Assembly: GCA_040757115.1 (NCBI GenBank)
Contig: JBFLYA010000025.1
Span: 1 to 28,037, forward strand
DNA length: 28,037 bases
Origin: a bacterium
GTDB taxonomy: Bacteria; UBA9089; CG2-30-40-21; SBAY01
Direction of reading: 5' to 3'
The position numbers and the translations under genes are program-made. Below the pieces are notes generated by a model. It made no database searches. It had not been told where the DNA came from and saw nothing but the letters and a program-made list of their open reading frames with translations. Every line of letters starts with the position of its first letter. The stretch's first letter is position 1. Of the stretch, positions 9,130 through 27,788 are shown piece by piece.

Positions 9130-9275
9130 TACCTTAATAATACCCAGTTTTGTTTGATTCATCCACATGATGTAGAGCATCAGAAATCAGTTGGGACTTC
9201 CTTTGCCCTGGCTCATCTCAAAAGAAGTTTCGCCTTAATGTAAGGCTTTTCATTATGGTGAGTTTTAGAAATATC
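9091..9275 (-). ncRNA. Structured leader RNA, class not recognised (riboswitch-like layout)
   Basis: A transcript from the promoter at 9282-9311 would begin near 9275 and end at the hairpin at 9091-9129. It can fold into a 6-bp GCCTTA/TAAGGC hairpin. It can also form a closed domain in which GAT-GAGC pairs with GCTC-TAC-ATC around an inner hairpin CAGGG...CCC-AA-CTG. Promoter, folded domain, terminator and open reading frame in that order are the layout of a cis-acting riboswitch or attenuator. I compared it by memory with c-di-GMP, cobalamin, SAM, TPP, glycine and SRP motifs and found no convincing match. Short frames inside it have no good ribosome sites. An independent small RNA is equally possible. 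Confidence 0.4.
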
Positions 9276-9281
9276 TGTTGT

Positions 9282-9311
9282 ATTTTATCATAATAGTATT
9301 AAATCTGTCAA
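9282..9311 (-). promoter_or_regulatory. Sigma-70-type promoter for the leader RNA / IPT-repeat gene
   Basis: Minus strand: TTGACA (9306-9311), 18-base spacer, TAAAAT (9282-9287). It lies just downstream of the RNase P RNA 3' end. Confidence 0.7.
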
Positions 9312-9751
9312 GCAAAAAATTTATTTTTTTTTAAAAAAAATATAGCAGGTCATAAGCCGAATTCTGTAACTATATGATACACATATAGTTTGGTAATCAT
9401 TTCTCTACGAAAAAAATTTATCTTTTTTTCTCCTGGCGACCTACCCGAAAAAAAGGTGGTATTTTTACCACTTTTAAGTGATAAATACCAAACTGTTAGC
9501 AGGCGACTAACAAGGCTAAAAAAATCCTCTTTTTTCCCTATTTGGTCTTGCACCAGGTGGGGTTTACCAGGCTAAGGAAGTCACCTTCCTTACTGGTGTG
9601 CTCTTACCACACCTTTTCACCCTTACCTGTACTCATTTTTAAAGAGCCATCGGCGGTATATTTTCTGTGGCACTTTCCGTAGGTTTTTACAACCCCCTGG
9701 GGATTACCCAGCACCCTGCCTTCTGGTGTTCGGACTTTCCTCTTCTGTTTA

Positions 9752-9807
9752 TTGGTAATTGGTTAAATGGTAACTGGTTAAATAATTACGAGTTACCACT
9801 TACCAAT
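9752..9807 (-). repeat. TTGGTAA-type palindromic repeat inside RNase P RNA (P3)
   Basis: A palindrome built of ttggtaa/ggtaact units and their complements, of the same family as the intergenic copies at 21901-21987, 23991-24054 and 27668-27713. In rnpB it lies between the two strands of the short P3 stem (CTTCT 9884-9888 with AGAAG 9742-9746), so it should fold as an extra hairpin. Confidence 0.75.
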
Positions 9808-9811
9808 TTTT

Positions 9812-9879
9812 AGATGCTGGATTCTAAGACATAAAACTCACCATATTTTTAGTTACTCAATACCTCGAATCCAGCATCT
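9812..9879 (-). repeat. Second palindrome inside RNase P RNA (P3)
   Basis: Perfect 13-bp arms: agatgctggattc at 9812-9824 and gaatccagcatct at 9867-9879, with a 42-base loop. It sits next to the TTGGTAA-type palindrome within the same P3 loop. Confidence 0.8.
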
Positions 9880-9912
9880 TTTTAGAAGCGATCACCTGAC
9901 CTACCTCTTTAT

Positions 9913-9941
9913 ATTATACCATAAATTTACTCAAAAGTCAA
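9913..9941 (-). promoter_or_regulatory. Consensus sigma-70 promoter of rnpB
   Basis: Minus strand: TTGACT (9936-9941), exactly 17 bases, TATAAT (9913-9918). The predicted start at 9906 coincides with the first base of the RNase P P1 strand. Confidence 0.88.
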
Positions 9942-10211
9942 TGGGGAGACAGAAGGCAGAGGGCAGAAGACAGAAGGCAGAGGGCAGAGGGCAGAAGGCA
10001 GAGAGCAGAGGGCAGAACAGAAACGGGGAAACGGAGAATAGGAGAAAAAGAAAAAATCCGAATGGTCCGAATGGGTCCAAATAGTCCGAATAGTCCGAAC
10101 TCAGAATGTTCCGAAAAAAAGAAACGGAGAATAGGAGAAAGAAGAATCAAAAAATATTCTCCCTTTCCCCCCTTCTCCGTTTCCCCGTTTCTCCCCTATC
10201 TGACCTCTGTC
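9942..10211. repeat. Gene-free stretch of simple repeats with a 19-bp inverted repeat
   Basis: Purine-rich short tandem units of the ggcagaaggcagag kind run from about 9948 to 10015. Degenerate 9-10-bp units (tccgaatag) run from about 10057 to 10100. A perfect 19-bp inverted repeat joins 10020-10038 to 10173-10191. The tandem tracts are in the same style as the pyrimidine tract at about 17935-17985. No gene is supported. Confidence 0.7.
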
Positions 10212-17646: not shown

Positions 17647-18097
17647 TACCTCATTTATAAAAATTCAGTTCTGAGTGTATAGGATCAGACCTCGAAAGCA
17701 GAATTATATCTTCTACCTTCTTTTTGTAAACGGATTAAACAGATTTTTTTTAGTAAGCGAATTAAGCGGATTGAGCGGATTTTTTTATTTCTTTTTCCGC
17801 TAAATCCGTTAAATCTGCTTACTAAATAGGAAATTTCCACCCCCCTAACCCCCGCCAGCGGGGGACAACCGATATCTTCAGGTCTTATAATTCCTGTCAC
17901 CTCCCCTAACCGCCGCCAGCAGGGGACAACTCGCCTCTGCTCTCTGCCTTCTGTCCTCTGCCTTCTATCTTCTGACCTCTGTATTTATCCGTGCTAATCC
18001 GTGTTAATCAGCGGCTGAATAGTTATCTTTACTTTTTGTCTTTTGTATTACACCAGGCACATTTTAACTTATTAACTCCATAAACTCTATTAACTTC
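17647..18097. repeat. Gene-free region with palindromic and simple repeats
   Basis: A large palindrome at about 17770-17825 (arms agtaagcg...gcgga and tccgctaaatccg...cttact) belongs with the partial copy near 6688-6732. Two copies of a ccctaacc-ccgccagc-ggggac unit lie at about 17840-17870 and 17903-17930. A pyrimidine tract of ctctgccttctg units runs at about 17935-17985. Neither strand has a T-run after the palindrome, so it is not a typical terminator. I reject the frames in this region as genes. Confidence 0.65.
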
Positions 18098-21900: not shown

Positions 21901-21987
21901 TTGGTAACCGGTGATTGGTAACTGGTAATTAAATACCGTTTGGCTGAGCTGACGACGAATCTATTTAACCAGTTACCAGTTACCAAT
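21901..21987. repeat. TTGGTAA-type palindrome upstream of rph
   Basis: Facing arms of ttggtaactggtaattaaata and its complement around a short unique loop. Same family as the P3 insert in rnpB. It lies between queE and rph, and the rest of that gap (to 22077) holds nothing I can identify. Confidence 0.75.
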
Positions 21988-22077
21988 TATCCGTTTGTAG
22001 GTTACGAAACCTGATGATGCCCCGTGTAAAACTTACTCAACACTACAGATAGTAATTAGTTAATAGTTACCACCAGT

Positions 22078-23954: not shown

Positions 23955-24444
23955 TGTCGTGTTGAACAAATAACGCACGGAATTTGATTGTGGTAACTGG
24001 TGATTGGTAACTGGTAATTAAATACCATTCACCACTTACCATTTAACCAATTACAAGGAAAACTCTCAAGAAGTAAGAAGTGGGAAGTCCGAAGTTAATA
24101 TAAGAGGAATCAACTTCTTTTCTTACTTCTCACTTTCTACTTCTCACTTCCTGCTTAAAAAAGCTGCGGGTAAAGAAAATTTGTCTATTGGACAAAACCA
24201 ATAAAATCAACATTTAATTTTATCCAATAGTGTTGCGAATTGGAAAGAAGAAACGCTCATGCCCCTACAGGGCACAAATGACGATGAAAAATAATAGCAC
24301 GCTGACGATGCGGATATTCGCGGATATAAGATAGGAGATAGAAGGTGGGAGATGGAGAGATAAGCGTGAGGAGTGGTGTTTTCTTTACTTTCTACTCTCT
24401 ACTTTCTACTCTCTACTTCCTATTTTCAGAAGAACTGCTTAAAA
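23955..24444. repeat. Gene-free region of palindromic repeats upstream of the cobalamin cluster
   Basis: A TTGGTAA-type palindrome (23991-24054) is followed by facing purine/pyrimidine arms of the gaagtaagaagtggg kind (about 24068-24165). Then comes a palindrome with ctattgga and tccaatag ends (about 24184-24230), then ctctactttctact tracts (about 24385-24420). I looked for a cobalamin riboswitch (GCCACTG-type core) ahead of cbiL and saw none. Confidence 0.65.
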
Positions 24445-27639: not shown

Positions 27640-27667
27640 TAAAAGCTCGCGGATAAAAAATAAGTAA

Positions 27668-27713
27668 TCGGTTAAATAATAATGGGTAACTAATTACCAT
27701 TTACCAATTACCA
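27668..27713. repeat. TTGGTAA-type palindrome
   Basis: Degenerate member of the family at 21901-21987 and 23991-24054, with ggttaaataataatgggtaac facing attaccatttaccaattacc. The rest of the gap between tRNA-Thr and 27788 holds nothing I can identify. Confidence 0.65.
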
Positions 27714-27788
27714 AATAGGGCTTCACGAAATTCCCTCACCCAAATATATAGAAAAGATTAGAGGTGGAGGACAGATATTCCCCCTTAA

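Follow-up and report, generated by a model that had tools for sequence, protein, structure and literature searches.

A dispersed palindromic repeat within the enlarged P3 domain of an apparently functional class A RNase P RNA

The rnpB gene and its promoter

The window (the whole stretch of DNA analysed, 28 037 nucleotides) carries on its minus strand an rnpB gene (9337–9907), whose class A RNase P RNA measures about 570 nt. The gene matches the RF00010 model with 224.9 bits against a cut-off of 100, covering model positions 1–367 in cmscan, and its 5' end was extended by hand to helix P1. A sigma-70-type promoter, TTGACT-17-TATAAT (9913–9941, minus strand), agrees with the consensus at 11 of 12 positions and has a TG-extended −10 element. 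It is conserved in the sister species of the same genus (G001) and in G002, which belongs to a different genus within the family; the window genome itself is referred to as G000.

The partners of P1, P2 and P3 were read from the sequence and compared with those of 14 relatives from the phylum. On the minus strand, the 5' strand of P1, GUAGGUCA (9897–9904), pairs with UGACCUGC (9352–9345), that of P2, GGUGAUC (9890–9896), pairs with GAUUACC (9398–9392), and that of P3, CUUCU (9884–9888), pairs with AGAAG (9746–9742), the corresponding P3 strands of G002 being CUUCUG/CAGGAG. The 3' strand of P3 is directly followed by the invariant GAGGAAAGUCC, which resembles a Shine–Dalgarno sequence. The P1, P2 and P4 pairings are present and the cores GAGGAAAGUCC, ACAGAA, GGUAAGGGUGAAA, CGGGUAGG and ACAGAA..CGGCUUA are kept, so that an earlier note, made from the letters of the window and describing these cores and pairings as intact, is borne out by both the RF00010 match and the relatives.

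A search of the 4.3 Mb genome (99.9% complete) with RF00010 returned one match, making rnpB a single-copy gene. There is no second normal rnpB in G000, only a decayed 3' fragment. At the DNA level, plasmid records contained only distant matches to the core of rnpB. The window gene appears to encode a functional class A RNase P RNA.

The decayed fragment (G000:C4:2667–2822; L099, L204) reaches from P18 to the 3' end and includes the downstream promoter. Similar decayed 3' ends are found at G003:C77:33428–33533 (L184) and at G002:C66:1998–2082 (L185), where the copy adjoins a gyrB-like 3' end; in the G000 and G003 copies CGGCTTA has become TGGCTTA. They are possibly remnants of an older rnpB site or integration scars. 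A complete rnpB was not found in the bins G003, G004, G006 and G018, three of which are 93–96% complete, and G003 has the 3' fragment only.

Folding of the enlarged P3

The two strands of P3 enclose 137 nt, which fold into two independent hairpins with helices of about 18–20 bp each. The segment 9742–9912 has a folding energy of −56.1 kcal/mol, compared with −28.9 kcal/mol for shuffled sequences (z = −7.3). The arms of the outer hairpin, AGATGCTGGATTC and GAATCCAGCATCT, pair perfectly over 13 bp as previously claimed, a length that was not reached when the segment was dinucleotide-shuffled 200 times. In the minimum free-energy structure of the full RNA the short helix at the base of P3 is not formed, and its assignment is based on comparison. 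The promoter lies upstream of both palindromes, which places them downstream of the transcription start and within the RNA.

Helices of 18–20 bp have the size that RNase III cuts, and other bacteria are known to remove extra stem-loops from their rRNA. The two hairpins might likewise be excised, in which case P1 and P2 would hold the two pieces of the RNase P RNA together. The inserts resemble the intervening sequences of 23S rRNA in that both are extra stem-loops at the tip of a hairpin in an essential RNA. The documented cases of removal by RNase III concern the latter, and the 5' piece left after excision would be only about 30 nt long and would have to be held by P1 and P2. We consider excision unlikely and infer that both inserts are retained in the mature RNA.

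The outer hairpin is an older arm of P3

The outer hairpin (9812–9879, minus strand) has a perfect 13 bp base and is single-copy: a second copy was not found in searches of the G000 and G001 genomes. Homologous hairpins are present in P3 of both G001 and G002. The P3 of G001 contains both hairpins, as in the window, while that of G002 contains one enlarging hairpin, AGATGCTGGGTTC..GAATCCGGCATCT, which is a diverged version of the 13 bp hairpin. MAFFT misaligns this G002 hairpin and it was therefore compared by hand. Two of the 13 base pairs differ between G000 and G002, each through a one-sided change that preserves the pair, and there is no change that breaks pairing.

The phylum set consists of 19 genomes (small uncultured MAGs), 15 of which have a complete rnpB match. 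P3 measures 10–34 nt in nearly all of the RNAs read, within and outside the phylum, and among these the enlarged form is confined to the family of the window genome. The one exception in the automatic survey of P3 (L027) is a failed motif match and was left out of the reading. As the outer hairpin is present in G000, G001 and G002 and the inner palindrome in G000 and G001, the outer one is the older and the inner one came later. The comparison thus indicates that the outer hairpin predates the genus and is a lineage-specific arm of P3 rather than a spreading repeat, contrary to the earlier note, which had taken both palindromes for spreading repeats.

The conserved pairing across genera could also mean that the enlarged P3 is functional, its succession of helix, internal loop and helix binding an additional protein as in eukaryotic RNase P. 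We know of no partner protein for it. In a recent survey of how RNase P RNA has grown, ES3.1 is an expansion of P3 by an internal loop and a helix that is found in Archaea and eukaryotes and binds proteins, and the bacterial expansions listed include P5.1, P18, P18.0, P14 and P10.1 (PMC12974513). The family of the window genome shares with ES3.1 the internal loop and the added helix at the end of P3 and provides a bacterial example, but the window P3 is recent and derives in part from a genomic repeat. The loop sequences vary among G000, G001 and G002, the inner palindrome is a later addition and related orders get by with a P3 of less than 35 nt. A protein-binding role for the enlarged P3 therefore seems rather improbable to us, and we retain the reading of the outer hairpin as a lineage-specific arm.

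The inner palindrome belongs to a dispersed family

The inner hairpin is a GGTAA/TTACC palindrome (9751–9807, minus strand) located in the internal loop of P3, on its 3' side. Three related palindromes lie between genes of the same window, at 21904–21990 (plus strand; matched arms 21904–21931 and 21961–21990), 23992–24054 (plus strand; E 6e-12) and 27664–27716 (minus strand; E 1e-6). They were found with nhmmer, and the relatives that the earlier note had placed near 21901, 23991 and 27668 are thus real. Beyond the window, the BLAST matches listed include 68 in G000, 100 in G001, five in G002 and seven in G003, whereas G005, G007 and G008 gave no match. Palindromes match on both strands, and the number of sites is therefore lower than the number of matches. 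In an unbiased 428 kb sample we found seven sites at about E <= 1e-6 (rough upper end 1.6e-6), from which about 70 copies per genome are estimated by extrapolation. Among the nine sites of this sample with E < 1e-3, only the weak L107:14532 (E 6.5e-4) lies mainly within an ORF.

The copies are near-identical at many unrelated loci, as is characteristic of MITE/REP-type elements. Over 61 bp the rnpB copy shares 97% identity with a copy at G000:C87, and its 30 bp right arm recurs unchanged in copies next to unrelated genes. Its identity at a lag of seven nucleotides is 0.62, a value not reached in 2000 shuffles, and the element is built of 7 bp units arranged as a hairpin. At P3 it is present in G000 and G001 and absent from G002. 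No clean target-site duplication is visible at the edges of the element and no exact empty site was identified. The BLAST and nhmmer copies elsewhere in the genome support the proposal that P3 of this single-copy and apparently functional RNase P RNA contains a dispersed intergenic repeat.

The tandem arrangement of the 7-mers, and a left arm that differs by one extra unit between G000 and G001, would also be in agreement with an origin in place, through slippage and template switching from a GGTAA-like sequence. The 97% identity to the G000:C87 copy and the identical right arm near unrelated genes argue against this, and we regard it as quite improbable compared with the arrival of a dispersed copy.

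The start of the cmscan match at 9807 falls inside this palindrome and might suggest that the true 5' end lies there, leaving the P3 segments outside the mature RNA; this is hardly tenable, since the P1 that cmscan proposes is a poor, mismatched helix formed by the repeat, G000, G001 and G002 all have the promoter and proper pairing partners for P1, P2 and P3 further upstream, and in G002 the same RF00010 model begins at the equivalent of our P1. The covariance check that had been suggested thus upholds the type A assignment, but its start position is false and is overridden by the upstream partners and the promoter. These also show that the P3 coordinates given earlier are right and that the RNA measures about 570 nt (about 560 nt in the earlier note). 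Rfam misplaces the 5' end in rnpB genes of this kind, and annotated RNase P RNAs of the group will be truncated.

Adjoining another copy of the element is a stretch of about 470 bp (L135, 467–938) that G001:C154 lacks at the corresponding position. Part of this stretch (564–806) is a repeat in its own right and occurs many times in G001.

The element is often found at Shine–Dalgarno edges

Among 41 distinct copies in G000, 23 have a Shine–Dalgarno-like word at most 12 nt from an edge, compared with 7.1% of random placements (P ~2e-16). In 20 of these a suitably spaced start codon follows as well (random 4.1%, P ~2e-17), and the spacing is 6–9 nt in 19 of the 20. The null model consists of random intergenic placements and not of gene-upstream DNA; a general preference for the fronts of genes could therefore explain part of the enrichment, but not the tight spacing. 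The flank typically runs from the end of the hairpin through AAATAA or a similar sequence to GGAGG and the start codon. Some of the remaining copies have one more repeat unit between the edge and the Shine–Dalgarno sequence, and a few copies are located directly before tRNA genes. The idea that the palindrome always faces the Shine–Dalgarno sequence in the same way was considered and dropped, as both orientations occur (eight right, 12 left). In a mirrored class of copies (for example L138, L139, L141 and L145) a conserved 28 bp tail, AATAGGGCTTCACGAAATTATAAAGTAA, is found on the side away from the Shine–Dalgarno sequence; this tail may represent part of a promoter or a conserved 5' leader that travels with the repeat.

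This distribution does not agree with the earlier suggestion that the repeat enters any site that tolerates a hairpin. The tmRNA was also checked for inserts; none is present and its length is normal.

In rnpB the palindrome ends in CCAATAAACAGAAGAGGAAAG, with GAGGA 11 nt from the edge, and the copy is positioned 11 nt before the invariant, Shine–Dalgarno-like GAGGAAAG. The spot is thus close to the usual neighbourhood of the element, which makes Shine–Dalgarno mimicry a plausible reason for the choice of site. The element may recognize, or ride with, A-rich/GGAGG sites of the Shine–Dalgarno type and may have entered the RNase P gene through the mimicry of GAGGAAAG. We put this forward tentatively: it concerns a single insertion event, the P3 loop would be a favoured site on grounds of tolerance alone, and GAGGAAAG is in any case close to whatever is inserted on the 3' side of P3. 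If it is true, a universal RNA motif would be a standing target for such repeats and the growth of P3 by these insertions would be predictable rather than random. The link between the repeat and Shine–Dalgarno edges is in itself a separate, testable observation in a little-studied phylum.

Other repeats occupy P12 in related genomes

P12, which like P3 is an outer helix, is short in the window genome (9626–9656, minus strand). It measures 22 nt in G000 and 82 nt in G001, where the additional 60 nt are an insert of an ACTGACT/ACTATCT-type repeat that is dispersed in G000 and G001. In G008, P12 contains an AGTAGAC palindrome that is dispersed in G008 and G013, and similar heptamer palindromes are inserted in P12 of G013 and G015. 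The identity at a lag of seven nucleotides is 0.53–0.78 in the P12 inserts of G001, G008 and G013, again not reached in 2000 shuffles. A significant period of seven is observed for P3 of G000 and for P12 of G001, G008, G013 and G015, while P12 of G002 has a period of nine and is not heptameric. The inserts of dispersed repeats in G001 and G008 are independent. The comparison indicates recurrence, with different dispersed and mostly heptamer-based palindromes occupying P12 of the relatives.

Presence and absence at orthologous sites can be followed twice: for P3, in G000 and G001 versus G002, and, with a different repeat, for P12, in G001 versus G000. In G005 and G007 (L035, L036) the P12 region is enlarged to about 235–331 nt and is not a simple palindrome.

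A model for the growth of P3

Comparison of the relatives shows two steps and the order in which the hairpins were acquired. The first took place in the family's ancestor, where a helix, an internal loop and a second hairpin, the single-copy arm with the 13 bp base, came to form the tip of P3. The second took place in the ancestor of the genus, where a copy of the dispersed palindrome was inserted into the 3' side of the internal loop, turning P3 into a three-way junction. Each hairpin folds alone at the distal end of P3 and at a distance from the catalytic core, and the insertion would thus have survived as a tolerated passenger; we infer that the inserts are harmless. The element may have reached P3 because GAGGAAAG resembles its usual Shine–Dalgarno neighbour, which is less certain than its tolerance. 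The account as a whole, a working class A RNase P RNA with a P3 enlarged in two steps, is in our view probably correct, and the RNA would represent a rare natural case of a catalytic RNA growing by insertion of a repeat.

Structured RNAs as a rule acquired their expansion segments long ago, and the origin of these segments has to be guessed. Here, before and after can be compared for two recent insertions, one in P3 between sister genera and one in P12 between species. The source of the repeat is visible elsewhere in the genome, which suggests dispersed hairpin repeats as raw material for the growth of a catalytic RNA.

Comparison with known repeat systems

The closest precedent is provided by the STRRs, heptamer repeats that were reportedly described in rnpB of heterocyst-forming cyanobacteria by Vioque in 1997, and whose site in that RNA is said to be P12. 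In both systems, dispersed intergenic heptamer repeats capable of forming hairpins lie within the RNase P RNA gene, and the P12 inserts in the relatives of the window genome are the same kind of event. The window repeat differs in phylum, in repeat sequence and in its palindromic architecture (the STRR units being set apart by description), as well as in its site, P3 in the catalytic domain. Tandem heptanucleotides and dispersal are both found here, in a host that is not a heterocyst-forming cyanobacterium, and the element is thus analogous to the STRRs and not a member. We know of no report of a Shine–Dalgarno-edge habitat for STRRs. What is new relative to this precedent is the site and the habitat, while the kind of event was already known.

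REP/BIME, ERIC, BOX/RUP, Correia and Rickettsia palindromic elements are short, palindromic, intergenic and non-coding and occur in tens to hundreds of copies; some small dispersed palindromic repeats of bacteria also intrude into genes. The window element has these general properties. Compared by description, it differs from them in its 7 bp units, its placement at Shine–Dalgarno edges and its copy in a catalytic RNA. In the literature within our reach, which left out most subscription papers, we found no direct precedent for repeats in P3 of rnpB, for Rickettsia palindromes in rnpB or for Shine–Dalgarno-linked repeats.

Other features around rnpB

Directly downstream of rnpB on the minus strand, the stretch 9150–9311 starts with a second promoter, TTGACA-18-TAAAAT (9311–9282), and contains blocks that are conserved in G001 and G002. 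Rfam gave no match in this stretch at loose thresholds; it is perhaps a small RNA or a leader. In G002 (L034) a palindrome, AAGTTAAAAGTG..CACTTTTAACTT, is situated between the TATAAT promoter and P1. Arrays of the heptamers CAGAAGG/CAGAGGG are found in opposite orientations just upstream of rnpB (9947–10016) and 8 kb away (17934–17981), and constitute another dispersed heptamer family.
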